DNA from: Pontiella desulfatans
Lineage (GTDB): Bacteria > Verrucomicrobiota > Kiritimatiellia > Kiritimatiellales > Pontiellaceae
Assembly (NCBI RefSeq): GCF_900890425.1
Contig: NZ_CAAHFG010000001.1
Location: 3,968,001-4,032,000 of the forward strand
Direction: 5' to 3'
Length of the DNA: 64,000 nt
The notes below the pieces were generated by a model. That model ran no database searches. It worked only from the letters and a program-made list of their open reading frames with translations, and had not been told where the DNA came from. Position numbers and translations under genes: made by a program. Shown one piece after another: positions 49,623-56,753 of the stretch (within the stretch, counting starts at the first letter, position 1; every line of letters starts with the position of its first letter).

Positions 49623-51884
49623 ATGAAACATTGCCTAGTGGCATTGGCACTATTGGGGCTTTGCGCACGCCAGGCGGAAACCAGCGAATCCACCGCATGG
49701 AAAGCCGCCGCAACTAAACGCGGGCTGGACGAACAGGCCATGGCGCAACTGGAAAAGGATCGTATCCTGGTCGTCGACGAAGCCTTCAAGCAGGTCTTCT
49801 CGGTCTATCTCGGTGGCGGCTCCGTTTTCATCACCTCCGATTCGCTGCTCAACGCCTACCACCTGCTCTACGAAGAGACCATCTTCCGCCTTGAAAACAC
49901 CAATGCGCAGCACTTGCCGCAATTCCTCCGGACCATCATGGAAAAGCTCGACGAAGCGGGAACGGAAATCGAGGGCGATCCCAAACTGCTTGAAGCCGCG
50001 CGCAAGCGCGCCCGGTTGGTCTGCGGCATTGCCCTGCGGCTGGCTGATGAGTCGTTCCAAACCGGCAACAAGCAACTCGACGCGATCCTGGCAGACGAGT
50101 GCGCGCGGATCGAAAAGGGCAACGGGCAACGCATGCCGAAATGGCTCGGCACGCCCTCCCCCTCCTTCATGGGCATCGACTACAACCGCTACAAGCCGCG
50201 CGGCTTCTATACCCGAACCGAAAAGCTATCCCGCTATTTCCGCGCCTTCTCCTGGCTCCAATCCATCCCGTTCCGCATCAGCCAAGATGAAGAGCTGCTT
50301 GCCATGCTGCTGCTGAGCGAGGCCGCTCCCGCAAGATATGAAACCGACTTGATCGACTACAGCCTACTCCTGGGCCGCCTCGACAATCTCGACGTTTTCT
50401 CCATCAATGAATACCGGCTTCGCGTCAACCTCGACAGCGGGGAGCTGGACAAGATGCGGATGGAATATGCCGACCAAGCGCAAGAGCAACAGACGGGGAA
50501 AATCAACGACACGGAACCCGCTTTCCGGATTCTTTCCGCCTACCAAACCCCGAGCGCCATGTTGTTCGAGCAAACAACCAGCAAGGTGGAGAACCGCGCC
50601 CTCCCGACAGGCCTGGAAGTGGCGGCAGCCCTCGGATCGGCGCATGCAAGGAAACTGCTGGCCGATTCCAATCACAACCTCACGTTGGAAACGATCGACG
50701 CCAATGCCGACCTTTTTCAAGAACATGTTTTCACTCCCCGCCGACGCCCACGCGGCTACAACCTCTACGGCAACTACCTGCATGTCCTGCGCGCCCTGAC
50801 CGCCCCCGCCGAACCCGCCGCGCCGGTATTTATAAACGGCGACGCATGGCAAACCAAAAGCATCAACACCCTCCTCGGGAGCTGGGTGCAAATGCGCCAC
50901 ACCTGGGCGCTCCAGGCCAAGCAATCCATGTCCTGGATGTGCGGCTCAGGAGAGCCCGCTGGCTTTGTCGAGCCGAACCCCGAATTCTTCGCGCGCATGG
51001 CGAACCTGGCCTATGGAACCAAGTCCACCATCGAGCGGTGCGGGGCGCTTGAAGCCGATTATTCCCTCGCCGCCGAAAACCTGCGGATCTTCGAGAAAAA
51101 GTGCGGTGCCTTCCAGACCGAAGACGAGTTCCTCGACTTCTTCCACGACCAGTCCAACGACGACCAGTCCGTGCTCCTTACCGCCTATGCCTTGATGCAT
51201 GTCACCCCATCGGAAGCCAAATATGGTTCAGCCCAGCTCTACCGGGAAAACGTGGCGTGGCTGAAAATCATCGAGCACGCCATCGAAACCGGCGACATCG
51301 GTGCGCACCCCGAAGCCTTGGCGATGCTCGAAAGCATCAACGGCAACCTTCCGAAAAAGTGGGACGATCTCGAGCGCATGAGCCGGCAACTGGAAGCCAT
51401 TGCCCACAAGCAGCTGCGCAACCTGACCTTCAACGGGCGGGAAGAGCAGTATATCCGCAACTATGGCCATGCTCTCGCCAATCTGATGTTCCATGAAGGA
51501 AACTCGTATGTAAACCCCCGCGATGACGCCCCGAAAATCGTGGACGTCTACTCCAACATCAACACCGGACAACACCTGCACGTCGGCATTGCCCGCCCGC
51601 GCAAATTGCATGTGCTCTACCCATGGCAAGGCAAAACCATCCTGTGCACCGGCGCGTTGCTGCCCTACTACGAATTCGCACACCCCACGCGCCTCAACGA
51701 CGCGGAATGGAAAACCATGCTCGGCTCCACAAAATGGCAGCCCAAGCGTTCTCTAGTACAAGGTTTCCTGGATGCCTTCAAACCGAAGGAACCAGCACCG
51801 CCGAGCACGCGTCCCGCCGTCCCCGAATGGATCAAGCCGATCCTCCAAGGCGACGGCCTCGCGGCGCCGGAATTCCGGGATTGA
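49623..51884 (+). CDS. Secreted DUF3160-family protein
   Basis: 753 residues. Signal peptide MKHCLVALALLGLCARQAETS. DUF3160 is recognisable from S-V-F-I-T-S-D-S-L-L-N-A-Y-H-L-L-Y (about 62-78) and the C-terminal G-Q-H-L-H-V-G-I-A-R-P-R-K-L-H-V-L-Y-P-W region. The family is found in secreted proteins of many bacteria and archaea; its activity is unknown. GGGAG lies ~7 bases before ATG 49623. It follows murJ by 38 bases and could be co-transcribed with it, but no functional link is evident. Confidence 0.85.
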   Translation: MKHCLVALALLGLCARQAETSESTAWKAAATKRGLDEQAMAQLEKDRILVVDEAFKQVFSVYLGGGSVFITSDSLLNAYHLLYEETIFRLENTNAQHLPQFLRTIMEKLDEAGTEIEGDPKLLEAARKRARLVCGIALRLADESFQTGNKQLDAILADECARIEKGNGQRMPKWLGTPSPSFMGIDYNRYKPRGFYTRTEKLSRYFRAFSWLQSIPFRISQDEELLAMLLLSEAAPARYETDLIDYSLLLGRLDNLDVFSINEYRLRVNLDSGELDKMRMEYADQAQEQQTGKINDTEPAFRILSAYQTPSAMLFEQTTSKVENRALPTGLEVAAALGSAHARKLLADSNHNLTLETIDANADLFQEHVFTPRRRPRGYNLYGNYLHVLRALTAPAEPAAPVFINGDAWQTKSINTLLGSWVQMRHTWALQAKQSMSWMCGSGEPAGFVEPNPEFFARMANLAYGTKSTIERCGALEADYSLAAENLRIFEKKCGAFQTEDEFLDFFHDQSNDDQSVLLTAYALMHVTPSEAKYGSAQLYRENVAWLKIIEHAIETGDIGAHPEALAMLESINGNLPKKWDDLERMSRQLEAIAHKQLRNLTFNGREEQYIRNYGHALANLMFHEGNSYVNPRDDAPKIVDVYSNINTGQHLHVGIARPRKLHVLYPWQGKTILCTGALLPYYEFAHPTRLNDAEWKTMLGSTKWQPKRSLVQGFLDAFKPKEPAPPSTRPAVPEWIKPILQGDGLAAPEFRD

Positions 51885-52208: not shown

Positions 52209-52955
52209 ATGGGAGGAGACACCTATGCCGAACTCTGCCGCCTCGCGGGCAAGGCCGTTGTTGATTATGAAATGATCCAAAACGGTGACCTTTTGCTGGT
52301 GGGCATTAGCGGCGGGGTGGACTCGATGATGCTGATGCATGTGCTCGACCGCCTGCAAAAGCGGGCTCCGGTCACGTTCGACCTCTTTGCGGTCACCATC
52401 GACGAAGGCTTCGAGGGCATCGACCATTCCCCGCTCGCCGCCTATGCCGAGGAGCAGGGATGGAACCTCAGGATTATCGGAACCCCCATTGCCCAACTCA
52501 TTATCGAGAAGCAAACCCAAGGCAAGCCCTGTGGCCTTTGCTCCCGCCTTCGGCGCGGCTTCATCCATGGCTATGCCGACGAAATCGGAGCGAACAAACT
52601 GGTGCTCGGCCAACACCGCGACGACCTATGCGTCAGCCTGCTGATGGGCCTCTTCCGCGGAACCGGCCTGAAAACCATGGGGCCGAACGTCCCAGCCGAC
52701 GGCGGAACCAAGCGCATCATCCGCCCGCTCTGCTATGCCCCGAAGGATTTGATCGAAACCTGCGCCACGGCCTACGACTTCCCCGACACCGGAAAATGCG
52801 ACTATTCCGACCAGCTCGACCAAACCGGTGACCGCGCCCGGATCGAGCGCCTACTGAAAGAGCTGGAAACGGACTTCCCCCACGTCGGGAAAAGCATGCT
52901 CCACTCCATGAAGGACGTCCGAACGGATTACTTGCTGGATTCCCGGTATTGGTAG
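52209..52955 (+). CDS. TtcA-like PP-loop tRNA-thiolation (2-thiocytidine) enzyme
   Basis: 248 residues from ATG 52209. The ATP-pyrophosphatase loop is S-G-G-V-D-S-M (the family usually has S-G-G-K-D-S), followed by the C-G-L-C-S-R-L-R-R-G motif that holds an iron-sulfur cluster cysteine pair in TtcA. TtcA makes 2-thiocytidine at position 32 of tRNAs. The Lys-to-Val change in the PP-loop is seen in other TtcA/TilS-type members, so activity may be kept. The frame extends upstream to 52128, but that part overlaps the antitoxin. The end overlaps the convergent response regulator gene by 28 bases. Confidence 0.8.
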   Translation: MGGDTYAELCRLAGKAVVDYEMIQNGDLLLVGISGGVDSMMLMHVLDRLQKRAPVTFDLFAVTIDEGFEGIDHSPLAAYAEEQGWNLRIIGTPIAQLIIEKQTQGKPCGLCSRLRRGFIHGYADEIGANKLVLGQHRDDLCVSLLMGLFRGTGLKTMGPNVPADGGTKRIIRPLCYAPKDLIETCATAYDFPDTGKCDYSDQLDQTGDRARIERLLKELETDFPHVGKSMLHSMKDVRTDYLLDSRYW

Positions 52956-53629
52956 CCAACGCCGTGCACCGTGACAATGGTGGTTGGCGACGAGGGATCG
53001 GCCTCCACCTTTTTCCTTAGCTGGGAAATATGCTGGTCAAGTGTGCGGGTGGTGCCGAAATAATCGACGCCCCAGACCATGTCGAGCAACTGGTTCCGGC
53101 TGAGCACCTCGCCGGCGCGACCATGGAAACAGCGTAGCAGCTCCATCTCGCGGGAGGTGAGCGGATGGACTTGTCCCCCCACCTCCGCCGTGTATTGCTT
53201 GGCATTGATCCGGGCATCGCCAAACAAGAATTCGGCGGGCAGATCGTTGCGATCATCCACCGGCCGCATGGTGCGCCGCAGGACGGCTTCGGTGCGGGCA
53301 ATCAATTCATGCACACCGAAGGGCTTGGTCACATAGTCGTCGGCACCGAGCTGCAGCCCCACCACCTTGTCGATCTCCTCGCCCTTGGCCGTCAGCATGA
53401 TGATCGGCGTGGCCGCATCGGTTTTGCGGATTTCGCGGCAGACGTCGTAGCCGCTTTTCCCGGGCATCATGACATCGAGTAAAACGAGATCGAACGTTCC
53501 GGCGGCATGGCAATCGAGAGCGGCGTTCCCGTCGGGAGCGGCCTGCACCCGATAGCCCTCGCTTTCGAATAGGTCCACGAGTCCGGTGCGGATGTTTTCG
53601 TCGTCTTCGGCAATCAGAATGGATTTCAT
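52928..53629 (-). CDS. OmpR-family response regulator
   Basis: 233 residues. Receiver domain with acidic pocket E-D-D (8-10), phospho-acceptor Asp52 in L-D-V-M-M-P, and K-P-F (about 102). The C-terminal winged-helix (about 135-230) has H-P-L-T-S-R-E-M-E-L-L and R-T-L-D-Q-H-I-S-Q-L-R-K-K, typical of OmpR/PhoB transcription factors. ATG 53629 is chosen because it overlaps the histidine kinase stop (ATGA). Third gene of the VWA-kinase-regulator unit. Target promoters are unknown. Confidence 0.93.
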   Translation of the reverse strand: MKSILIAEDDENIRTGLVDLFESEGYRVQAAPDGNAALDCHAAGTFDLVLLDVMMPGKSGYDVCREIRKTDAATPIIMLTAKGEEIDKVVGLQLGADDYVTKPFGVHELIARTEAVLRRTMRPVDDRNDLPAEFLFGDARINAKQYTAEVGGQVHPLTSREMELLRCFHGRAGEVLSRNQLLDMVWGVDYFGTTRTLDQHISQLRKKVEADPSSPTTIVTVHGVGYQYRESSK

Positions 53630-55275
53630 GCGGCATCCCCTTTCAACGGTAGTTTGAGCACGAAGCACGCGCCGCCGCCTTCGGCGGGTTCGTATTCCAG
53701 CCCGCCACCGAGATCAACCAGCAGGCGGTGGGCAATCGCCAGGCCAAGCCCGCAGCCCTGGTGGTTGGCGGTGATGGAGCTATCGATGCGGTAGAACCGC
53801 TCGAAGATGCGGCGGCGATGGGGTTCGCCGATCCCCCCGCCGGCATCGGCGATGGCAATGCGATGGCACCCGGTGCCCGATGACAGCCGGACCGACAGCC
53901 TCTTCCCCGAAGCCGCATACTTGATGGCGTTATCGACCACGTTGAGAACCACTTGCTGGATGGCGTCCCGGTCGGTCTCGACCATCACGGCTTCGCCGGG
54001 ATGCCCCAGCTCAAGATCCATTCCGGCTTCGGTCAACCGGATGCGCTGGGACTGGAGCGTCTCTTCCAGCAGCTCGCACAAATCGAACGCGCTGATTTGA
54101 TATTTCTTGCGGTGCTGCTCCAACCGGCTGAAATCGAGCACGTTGTTGACCAGGCGCGTGAGCCGCTCGCTTTCGCCAACGATGGTGGAAAGGTAGCGTC
54201 GCTTCTTAACGGGGTCGGACACCCGGCCTTCGGCGAGCAGGTCGGCATACATGCGGATGGTCGTGAGCGGTGTCTTGAGTTCGTGCGAGACATTGGAGAC
54301 AAACGAGGTCTTTTGCTCGGCATCGATCCGGTTGCGGTGCGCCTCGCGCAACAGCAGGCCGCCCGACGCAAAGAGCACGACAAACAGGATGGAAACCAGA
54401 ACCGCGGTCAACACCGCAAACCCGGTTCCGGCTCTGCGGAATGTTCCGTCCGGCGTATATAGAACCAGTTCCCAGTGCGGCAGCATTTCCCCGATGGGTA
54501 TGCGCAGGGCGGATTCGAATCCGCCTTTTCCGATATCGCCCGTGCGGTACATCTCGCGCCCGCCGCCATCGACGAGCGTCAGGATTTGACCGTCGGGCAT
54601 TTCCTTCGGCAAGCCAGACAGCAGATCGGCAAGCAGCGCCGCCATTTCCAGTTCCGCGCCGAAGCGCCCATCATCGCCCATCTCAACCCAACCAAGCATA
54701 TAGAGGCGGTCTTCCCAAAACCATGGAATCCAGCCGCTCTTCCAAGCGGGTGACGGCGGGCTTGCGCGCCGATAGCTTCTCTTGAGCGACGACGGCTCCG
54801 CAGCGTCGTCATCCCCGCTGCCAGGCCACTGACGCATGCCCTCGAACAACGTACCATAACGCGTCGCAAATCCCTTCTGCTCCCGCGTCATCGGCAGGGC
54901 GGGATCGGGCAGAACCAATCCATCCCCCGGCTCCCAGACAAATGCGTTGCGAACCAGTGGATGGCGCTCCTCCAGCGCGGACAGGCCGGCGGGATAGTCC
55001 GCGTTCCGCAAGGCGATCAACAACCCCGCAACCTGGTCGCAAGCGGAACGAACGGAATAGTCCACCGAATCCCGGATGGCTTGCAGCGTTCCGCGCGCCG
55101 CTTCCTCGTGGGCGCGGGCGAGCCGTTCCTGCTCGTGCGAAAGCAGGCGCGCCGCCACCCCCGCAATGAGGATGGCGGGCAATAGCAGCAACACGCCATA
55201 GAATATGACCGGGGGTTTCCTAATCCTTCTTCTCCTTTTGCGGAAGCGATGACTGCTGCTGGTTCTGGATTTCAT
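53626..55275 (-). CDS. Membrane sensor histidine kinase
   Basis: 549 residues. TM1 at ~22-42 and TM2 at ~293-318 enclose a ~250-residue periplasmic sensor of no recognised family, rich in Trp and charged residues. Cytoplasmic part: HisKA with phospho-acceptor His331 in N-V-S-H-E-L-K-T-P-L-T-T-I, and HATPase with N-V-V-D-N-A-I-K-Y-A, D-A-G-G-G-I-G and G-L-G-L-A-I-A-H. The ATG at 55275 overlaps the VWA gene end by 56 bases and has no clear ribosome binding site; a later start is possible but would trim TM1. The stop overlaps the response regulator start. Confidence 0.9.
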   Translation of the reverse strand: MKSRTSSSHRFRKRRRRIRKPPVIFYGVLLLLPAILIAGVAARLLSHEQERLARAHEEAARGTLQAIRDSVDYSVRSACDQVAGLLIALRNADYPAGLSALEERHPLVRNAFVWEPGDGLVLPDPALPMTREQKGFATRYGTLFEGMRQWPGSGDDDAAEPSSLKRSYRRASPPSPAWKSGWIPWFWEDRLYMLGWVEMGDDGRFGAELEMAALLADLLSGLPKEMPDGQILTLVDGGGREMYRTGDIGKGGFESALRIPIGEMLPHWELVLYTPDGTFRRAGTGFAVLTAVLVSILFVVLFASGGLLLREAHRNRIDAEQKTSFVSNVSHELKTPLTTIRMYADLLAEGRVSDPVKKRRYLSTIVGESERLTRLVNNVLDFSRLEQHRKKYQISAFDLCELLEETLQSQRIRLTEAGMDLELGHPGEAVMVETDRDAIQQVVLNVVDNAIKYAASGKRLSVRLSSGTGCHRIAIADAGGGIGEPHRRRIFERFYRIDSSITANHQGCGLGLAIAHRLLVDLGGGLEYEPAEGGGACFVLKLPLKGDAA

Positions 55276-56572
55276 AGTTGCGGGTTTTCATTTCCTTACG
55301 CTGCGTCGGAGACAAAACCTTCTTCAGTTTAATTTCTTCGGCCTGCCGCTGGTAGGTCTCCGCCTCTTCCTTGAGTTCAGGTACGTTGTAGCGATCGGCA
55401 TAATCCATCAGGACAGCCGAGTTCCGGCCCATGGTTTCGGCAGCCTGGTCGTAGTCGCGGTTGTCGGCCTGAATGATGGCCTGGGCCTGCAGCTCGACGG
55501 CCCGGTTGAGCATCACCTCCTTGCCCACGGCAATATTGACGCTCTGCTCGACCTCCTCCGGTTTCTTGCTGAACCGAACCATCGCCTGGCCGGATGTGGT
55601 GTTGGAACGGTTGGCGAGCATATCCTGGTAGGTGCAGCGGGCATCGGCCACCTTGCGCACCTCGCCCTCGGCGCTTTCCGGCAGCTCCACCTCGATCAGC
55701 GCATACTTTTCCTGACCGCCATAGAGCTGGTTCAACGAAACCTGCACGGTGTTCGCCCCAACCCGCCCATCGCGGCCAATGATCCGGATCGGCCGGATGC
55801 CTGCGGGAAACTCCACCTCAATGACGACCCGGCTGGCCACCACGCTAAGGACATCGCCCAGCTCCTTGCTGAAGATATGTGGCAGATCGGCGCTCGATTC
55901 AACAAAGTAGGTGTTGCCATCGCTGTTCTGCGCCATGAGCGTCATGAGGTCTTCGTTGTAGTCGGTGCCAACCCCGATGGTCGAGACCGAGATGCCCTCC
56001 TTGCGCAGGGCCGTGCCCAACCGTCCGAGTTCCTCCGGCGAGGAGGGACCGGAATTGGCTTTGCCGTCCGACAACAGCAGCAAGCGGTGGACGGAATCGC
56101 GGGAGAGGTTTTTCCGAACTTCGGAAGCGCCCTGCCCCACCCCGGCGAACAGCGCGGTATTGCCGCCGGTGGTGATGGCCCGGATCTTTTGCTCGATCCA
56201 CGCGGTGTTCGACGCGCTCTGCGCCGGAACAACGGTCTCGATCCGGTCGCTATAGGTCACCAGCGAAAACGTATCCTGCGCCCCAAGCCGCCGCAGGGCG
56301 GCAATCGCCGCATCCCGCGCCTTTTCAATCTTATCCCCCGCCATCGAGCCCGACCGATCCAGCACAATGCCCAGATTCACCGGCGGACGCTCTTCCCGGC
56401 GCGGCACCACCGGTGCGTCGAGTGTCACCTTCACCACCGCCGTCTGCCTTTGCCCGGCAAAGACCACATCCCGATCCATTTCCACCCGGCACACCACTTC
56501 GGGCAACGCCTGCGCCGCCCCCGCCACCAACATTCCTGCCACTGCCAACTGTTTGCCCAATGCATTCATCAT
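55220..56572 (-). CDS. Secreted von Willebrand factor A (VWA) domain protein
   Basis: 450 residues. Signal peptide (about 1-22, ending A-A-Q-A-L-P). The VWA domain (about 65-245) has a complete MIDAS: D-R-S-G-S (Asp72, Ser74, Ser76), the T in G-G-N-T-A-L-F and D in L-S-D-G-K. The rest includes a beta-rich region and a C-terminal Gln/Lys-rich helical tail. VWA proteins bind partners through a divalent metal. GGAG precedes the ATG at 56572. First gene of the unit with kinase and regulator, so it may modulate the kinase's periplasmic sensor (inference). Confidence 0.88.
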   Translation of the reverse strand: MMNALGKQLAVAGMLVAGAAQALPEVVCRVEMDRDVVFAGQRQTAVVKVTLDAPVVPRREERPPVNLGIVLDRSGSMAGDKIEKARDAAIAALRRLGAQDTFSLVTYSDRIETVVPAQSASNTAWIEQKIRAITTGGNTALFAGVGQGASEVRKNLSRDSVHRLLLLSDGKANSGPSSPEELGRLGTALRKEGISVSTIGVGTDYNEDLMTLMAQNSDGNTYFVESSADLPHIFSKELGDVLSVVASRVVIEVEFPAGIRPIRIIGRDGRVGANTVQVSLNQLYGGQEKYALIEVELPESAEGEVRKVADARCTYQDMLANRSNTTSGQAMVRFSKKPEEVEQSVNIAVGKEVMLNRAVELQAQAIIQADNRDYDQAAETMGRNSAVLMDYADRYNVPELKEEAETYQRQAEEIKLKKVLSPTQRKEMKTRNYEIQNQQQSSLPQKEKKD

Positions 56573-56719
56573 TCTGTCTCCATGCTAGTAGGTTCCTTCT
56601 CCTCTGTCACGGTCGCCCGTCAACGATTTACGAAAGAAGGTTAGCCCGTTTCCGGAACCAGTGGTCATGAGGGGGTAAAAGGATTGTAAAAGAAATGTCA
56701 TGGAATCCTCCGGCAGACC

Positions 56720-56753
56720 ACCATTATCACACCTCACAAGGTGTGATAATGGT
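56720..56753. repeat. 15-bp perfect inverted repeat upstream of glpK
   Basis: ACCATTATCACACCT (56720-56734), loop CACA, and the exact reverse complement (56739-56753). There is no U-tract on either side. It lies 99 bases before the glpK ATG, in the divergent VWA-glpK gap. An operator, an mRNA hairpin or an extragenic palindrome are all possible. Confidence 0.75.

Follow-up and report, generated by a model that had tools for sequence, protein, structure and literature searches.

A VWA, kinase and regulator operon in Pontiella desulfatans

The subject of this analysis is a set of three genes of Pontiella desulfatans, read head to tail on the minus strand from position 56572 down to 52928 of a 64,000-nucleotide stretch of contig NZ_CAAHFG010000001.1 (positions 3,968,001 to 4,032,000; called here the window). 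As read from the open reading frames (ORFs), they encode a VWA protein, a sensor histidine kinase and a response regulator, in this order, and we refer to them as the triad. The genes and their parts are:

55220..56572, minus strand: VWA gene, 450 residues; signal-peptide-like N-terminus, VWA domain (66-235), beta-sandwich and C-terminal helical bundle
56345..56359, minus strand: DxSxS motif (D72, S74, S76) of the metal ion-dependent adhesion site (MIDAS), invariant in 25/25 and 45/45 aligned VWA proteins
56156-56158, minus strand: MIDAS residue T139, invariant in 25/25 and 45/45 rows
56066-56068, minus strand: MIDAS residue D169, invariant in 25/25 and 45/45 rows
55256..55300, minus strand: C-terminal signature R425-K426...Q438-Q439, nearly invariant in both alignments
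53626..55275, minus strand: sensor histidine kinase gene, 549 residues
54430..55143, minus strand: extracytoplasmic sensor region, approximately residues 45-282, flanked by two hydrophobic helices; limits by eye
53641..54312, minus strand: HisKA (322-387, with invariant His331) and HATPase_c (435-545), from Pfam and alignment
52928..53629, minus strand: OmpR/PhoB-type response regulator gene, 233 residues, with invariant Asp52

The VWA and kinase genes share the 56 bases 55220-55275, and this overlap is real provided that the kinase begins with a usual start codon, because the kinase frame offers no alternative ATG, GTG or TTG before the first membrane helix. The ATGA at 53626-53629 combines the kinase stop with the regulator start in a 4-base overlap; the first-listed start of the regulator ORF (53668) lies 13 codons before the one used (53629). 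The coordinates and both overlaps given in the preliminary description of this DNA are correct. On one side the triad is flanked by a divergent glpK-like gene (FGGY kinase), and on the other by a convergent PP-loop gene whose end overlaps that of the regulator by 28 bases (52928-52955), so the operon consists of three genes.

Pfam finds HisKA and HATPase_c in the kinase, with nothing N-terminal to them, and Response_reg and Trans_reg_C in the regulator; all four are above their gathering scores, which places the pair among OmpR-type two-component systems. His331 and Asp52 are invariant in the family alignments (in that of the regulator the query rows stop some 8 residues before the C-terminus). 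As in other OmpR/PhoB-type systems, the kinase core scores highest with PnpS/PhoR/WalK-like families and the regulator with YycF/PhoB-like ones, in both cases below the cut-offs. Unlike them, the operon is headed by a dedicated, secreted-looking VWA gene, and the sensor domain belongs to no Pfam family. For the latter, described earlier as large and unassigned, 48 kinases of the family were scanned one by one, and each non-kinase Pfam family matched at most two of them. The predicted kinase model (predicted local distance difference test, pLDDT, 87.9) has a long first helix and then, by eye, two alpha/beta units ahead of the second membrane helix. In a comparison with double Cache domains it is likewise the order of elements, judged by eye, that suggests two such units, the structure matches lying mostly at 307-547. 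The catalytic halves lead the Foldseek and VIA-align matches of the model (50 each listed; the part tested with VIA-align was 307-547), and a sensor profile found no relative in the PDB with E < 0.1. That the sensor is missing from these lists need not mean that its fold is new.

The VWA protein matches PF00092 (2.6e-23) and looks secreted, its N-terminus having been read as signal-peptide-like by eye and not with a predictor. Its MIDAS site is intact and, in the aligned sequences, invariant. R425 and Q438 are invariant across the 25 rows of the narrower alignment; in the wider set of 45 it is K426 that is invariant, with R425 and Q438 each at ≥90%. The predicted model (pLDDT 92.6) superimposes on ArnB (8s05_A) over 379 residues of a 381-residue chain, with Z 38.0 and a root-mean-square deviation of 3.4. 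ArnB and vWA2 of Sulfolobus (8s05, 5a8j) have the same succession of VWA domain, beta-sandwich and C-terminal helix bundle that is modelled here, also with an intact MIDAS, and ArnB too is a signalling protein. Sequence identity between the two is, however, 20%, and the window protein, unlike ArnB, looks exported and is coupled to a histidine kinase. ArnB has an FHA protein as its partner and phosphorylation sites at its C-terminus; it binds this partner, ArnA, through its C-terminal part, and its authors suggest that a glutamate of the partner may close the MIDAS (all from PMC6509490). A Pfam scan found no FHA gene among the three operon genes; the remaining genome was not searched for FHA.

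Conservation of the gene order within and beyond the phylum

A search with the kinase across 194 relatives gave full-length matches reaching well beyond the catalytic core, and the 40 best places besides the window's own, from 39 genomes, formed our survey of the class. Six loci whose contig stops at the beginning of the kinase gene or close to it (L010, L058, L061-L064) are untestable; in 30 of the other 34 a VWA homologue lies upstream of the kinase on the same strand. As to the exceptions, in L036 the VWA gene is more than 5 kb upstream with other ORFs intervening, L048 has none in its 877 upstream bases and carries it at the end of another contig of the same genome, L054 has a 2,057-residue alpha-2-macroglobulin in its place, and in L067 it was not found upstream of the kinase. 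The 4-base kinase/regulator overlap recurs at 22 of the 35 loci with a listed distance. An overlap of VWA and kinase genes occurs at 7/29 loci, a count that depends on the start codons chosen, 4 of the 29 VWA ends being unsure; the others have short gaps or extra genes, which encode a Laminin_G_3 protein (L042), a TPR protein (L044), a protein with a weak DUF4139 match below cut-off (L057) and products assigned to no family (L033, L035). On this comparison, the conserved trait is gene order rather than the 56-base overlap.

Two other outcomes had been allowed for at the outset, that the triad would be missing even from sister genomes, or that the VWA gene would have a separate promoter and unrelated partners. 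In the genus the set is patchy, a full-length kinase match being found in 3 of 28 genomes, the window's own included, but the whole triad is present in G004 and G014, and the second outcome did not occur either. Across 387 genomes of the phylum, the VWA C-terminal part and the kinase sensor occur together in 55, the former alone in 2, the latter alone in 16 and neither in 314, at a cut-off of 1e-6, with several of the sensor-only rows weak (1e-7 to 1e-10); the Fisher value of 1.6e-49 ignores the relatedness of the genomes. The two are adjacent on one strand in 51 of the 55 genomes that have both.

To compare phyla we scanned genome contigs with the VWA alignment and took the best 80 of 387 confirmed loci, two of which duplicate genomes already counted (L070 = G014, L078 = G125). 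Among these 80, kinase and regulator follow the VWA gene in the same orientation at 48; at 1 there is a kinase alone, the contig ending soon after, and at 7 neither is seen before the contig ends. By record title, triads are found in Desulfobacula, Opitutaceae, Marinobacterium, Amphritea, Neptuniibacter, Yersinia frederiksenii and Rhodopirellula, as well as in Nitrospina, Riflebacteria, Omnitrophota, Hydrogenedentes, Sumerlaeota and Synergistaceae. In these triads the sensor profile scores from approximately 300 bits (Desulfobacula) down to 57-58 (Yersinia, Synergistaceae); therefore the sensor is common to them, and not the catalytic core alone. The neighbourhood survey suggested in the preliminary description thus finds the triad conserved in many phyla. 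A plasmid collection holds VWA relatives only below 60% identity (18 records), and an E. coli collection gave no match to the Yersinia triad DNA. No description of a VWA-kinase-regulator triad was found in the literature covered, which consisted of titles and abstract starts, with subscription journals mostly outside.

Two loci of the phylum have peculiarities of their own. Upstream of the triad of G004 (L031 10582-15600), a kinase, a membrane protein that we take to be CreD-like and a second, longer VWA protein run in one direction. In G178 (L049 616-2657) the VWA match ends after residue 211 and the kinase match begins at residue 106, through either natural deletion or assembly error.

A putative tandem-repeat operator and the genes behind it

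The DNA in front of the VWA gene contains the following element:

56664..56700, minus strand: putative operator of four tandem TKAC units with an 11-base period, separated from the VWA ATG by 91 bases

The array reads TGACATTTCTT-TTACAATCCTT-TTACCCCCTCA-TGAC. Its period was derived from a motif-free count of repeats by spacing in the 300 bases upstream of 72 triads, which hold 139 exact 6-mer direct repeats spaced 11 bases apart (6.1 in dinucleotide shuffles). There is an excess at spacing 22 too (32 versus 7.4), as expected of a longer tandem array, and a lesser one at spacings 9 (27 versus 6.5), 10 (19 versus 8.7), 12 (18 versus 7.6) and 21 (14 versus 7.3) perhaps comes from T-rich runs inside the array. 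With duplicates removed, 43 of 70 VWA-upstream regions have such an 11-base-spaced repeat; control windows have it in 4/64 (300-600 bases upstream), 7/70 (VWA gene start) and 3/26 (after the regulator). The consensus is TTTTACAAtt.TTTTACA, and the sites begin between 80 and 271 bases ahead of the ATG.

A matrix trained on the class places 22 of 29 other-phylum sequences above the 99th percentile of shuffles. The reciprocal matrix, trained on the other phyla, recovers 25 of 29 class sequences, the window among them with a score of 29.0 (threshold 11.9), and on the reverse strand no sequence passes in the same test. It should be noted that the pattern used to anchor the training sites came from the complete set, so that the test is mildly circular, and that phyla were taken from titles. 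At the level of these comparisons, our data show that an operator of 11-base direct repeats, new here, is common to the class and other phyla. OmpR/PhoB-type regulators use direct-repeat operators of one helical turn, and the triad has a predicted tandem repeat of about that length; since this is the type of site expected for such a regulator, autoregulation would be the simplest reading. In the 8.66-Mb genome the four-unit pattern with at most one mismatch matches twice, once exactly in the window array and once with one mismatch (reversed control, 1), and a second exact match of the four-repeat array is absent.

Another element lies nearby: a perfect inverted repeat at 56724-56749, TTATCACACCT-TGTG-AGGTGTGATAA, between the operator and the divergent glpK-like gene. 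It is single-copy in the window and may be the site of another regulator or a stem-loop.

A three-unit pattern (at most one mismatch) has 61 matches in 33 of 288 class genomes, compared with 11 in 5 for the reversed control, and a match precedes the VWA gene in 22 of the 33. Other matches precede different genes. Secreted-looking proteins of 2,100-2,200 residues follow a site in G181 and G141 (found by pattern) and in G048 and G131 (by matrix), that is at 4 of the 8 giant-protein genes whose upstream DNA was read; those of G186, G449, G074 and G095 have no operator at 14 bits or more. G048, G131 and G181 belong to one genus, and the window's genome has no match to the giant protein, so it would be a lineage-specific target only. 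A partial relative of it follows a site in G542. The giant proteins of L187 and L188 have no Pfam match, and by BLAST the halves are alike across the members of the family (L187 846-7445, L188 3767-10174, L227 241-6837).

Operator-like sites are also seen before an alpha-2-macroglobulin in G072 and G056, two squalene-cyclase-like repeat proteins in G107, a rhodanese-like protein in G072, and a DUF4139 protein that heads a DUF4139-VWA-kinase order in G532. DUF4139-like genes adjoin the VWA gene in two Planctomycetota loci as well, by Pfam in L082 and, without a Pfam match, by BLAST similarity in L109. In G062 (L224 2381-5887) the site is followed by a secretin-like protein of 278 residues and then by another kinase-regulator pair, whose kinase gives no match to the sensor profile. 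Alpha-2-macroglobulin was rejected as a general target: 18 of 20 such genes from 15 triad genomes lack the site, that of the window's genome among them, and the two sites were both found via the operator search and are no independent enrichment. No gene in this group, with alpha-2-macroglobulin at 2/20 and the giant protein at 4/8, is a general additional target. Genes behind the site in G117, G156, G186:C358, G426, G449:C431, G511 and G527 follow no pattern, and G172:C134 has a match near a contig end. G523 has 19 matches on several contigs, several of them at contig ends; these are probably a repeated element of another kind, or else a copied operator.

Probable coupling of the VWA protein to the kinase sensor

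We compared pairwise distances among the 62 triads passing length filters by partial correlation, holding the other segments constant. The VWA domain correlates with the sensor at 0.41 (0.28-0.50 on resampling), but not with the kinase catalytic part (-0.03) or the regulator (-0.04 and 0.07); in the 41 triads from outside the class the VWA-sensor value is 0.40. This supports a physical or functional coupling of the VWA protein to the sensor, without implying contact itself.

Sequence comparison establishes a gene order and a co-occurrence that cross phyla, a shared operator, an invariant MIDAS and the co-divergence of VWA domain and sensor. Because of the order, the co-occurrence, the operator and the co-divergence, the VWA protein belongs with the kinase. 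We therefore consider it probable, if by no means certain, that the three genes form one conserved, autoregulated three-component signalling system, and the triad would be best described as a two-component system that is almost always accompanied by a secreted-looking VWA protein and has an operator common to several phyla. The earlier proposal of a periplasmic accessory of the kinase is borne out as far as the association goes; the input role would follow from the mechanism outlined next. The regulator would bind the 11-base-repeat operator upstream of the VWA gene, and the VWA protein would be exported to the periplasm, bind a divalent metal and dock onto the sensor domain. An envelope component engaging the VWA protein, or its release, would alter kinase activity; the kinase would phosphorylate the OmpR-type regulator, which would raise (or repress) its own operon and, in some lineages, might also act on genes of very large secreted proteins. 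CpxP, an auxiliary periplasmic kinase regulator, is likewise secreted and has its gene controlled by the regulator of the system it serves; it is, however, another kind of protein.

Several observations weigh against such a system. At 24 of the best 80 VWA-relative loci neither kinase nor regulator lies downstream, although at least 1.5 kb is present (in L082 and L109, both among them, a regulator is nearby on the opposite strand, in L109 with a kinase), so members of the VWA family, mostly more distant ones, occur also without this partner. Conversely, 16 of 71 genomes with the kinase sensor have no VWA match. Within the class alone (21 members) the VWA-sensor correlation is weaker and unspecific (0.27, versus 0.29 with the receiver domain). 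The class-trained matrix places just 2 of 9 loci titled Verrucomicrobia above the 99th percentile of shuffles, and in the window's genome no operator target beyond the own operon was found at the patterns used. Finally, the kinase locus of G056 (L054/L225 6449-15989) has an operator-like site followed by the 2,057-residue alpha-2-macroglobulin, a kinase with the triad-type sensor and the regulator, with no VWA protein in its usual place.

The last case leads to the other live reading, in which an ordinary two-component system would have the VWA protein as its main output, an adhesion or scaffolding protein secreted in a dose set by the regulator. It would explain why the VWA gene is the first behind the operator, why other secreted proteins (giant protein, alpha-2-macroglobulin, DUF4139) stand behind like sites in some genomes, and why alpha-2-macroglobulin can replace it. 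These other proteins are sporadic, however, alpha-2-macroglobulin genes carrying the operator so rarely, while 55 of 57 VWA genomes also carry the sensor, and it is with the sensor, not the regulator, that the VWA domain co-diverges when all triads are taken together. We regard this reading as possible but rather doubtful, and a role of the VWA protein as kinase accessory as the better of the two.

That the triad represents a remote offshoot of the marine proteobacterial sortase set (sortase, kinase, regulator and VIT-VWA target; TIGR03784-TIGR03788) is very improbable. VWA protein, histidine kinase and regulator occur in proximity there too, and among the NCBIfam matches listed for the VWA protein TIGR03788 ranks first. 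The window proteins nevertheless remain far below the cut-offs: TIGR03788 gives 42.8 bits against 551.65, over positions 258-435 of 629 (VWA domain only), and TIGR03785 gives the kinase 76.1 bits against 612.2, over positions 487-680 of 703 (catalytic part only), where four other kinases of the same genome outscore it. TIGR03787 (regulator) is not among the 25 NCBIfam matches listed of 103. Neither flanking gene in the window (PP-loop, FGGY kinase) encodes a sortase, with no sortase search made in the remaining genome or the other triads. Chance neighbourhood or a loose operon habit with no common function, to which the patchiness in the genus and the variable VWA-kinase spacing might point, is the least credible explanation of all, being contradicted by the cross-phylum order, co-occurrence and operator.

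If the accessory reading holds, an ArnB-like VWA protein would act as a signalling partner outside the cytoplasm. A more specific picture, which we offer tentatively and think rather unlikely, is an envelope surveillance system that crosses phyla, with the exported ArnB/Sec23-core VWA protein as the true receptor. An acidic residue of the sensor would close the MIDAS, ligand or envelope damage would swap this contact and thereby switch the kinase, and the regulator would raise the operon by way of the 11-base repeats and, in some lineages, giant secreted defence or scaffold proteins. Candidates for the MIDAS ligand, as a hypothesis, are E208 and D236, whose conservation in the 62 triads is moderate (Glu in 44/62 and Asp in 52/62, respectively). 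The signal is not known for many sensor kinases. In the triad, comparison has defined the secreted partner, the orphan sensor domain and the operator alike, which makes the system directly testable. The operator can serve for a reporter, the MIDAS residues for point mutants and the VWA-sensor pair for a binding assay, and the occurrence in several phyla, cultured marine gammaproteobacteria included, makes work possible outside the window's organism.

Elsewhere in the window, positions 49623-51884 encode a DUF3160 protein of 753 residues whose start looks secreted.

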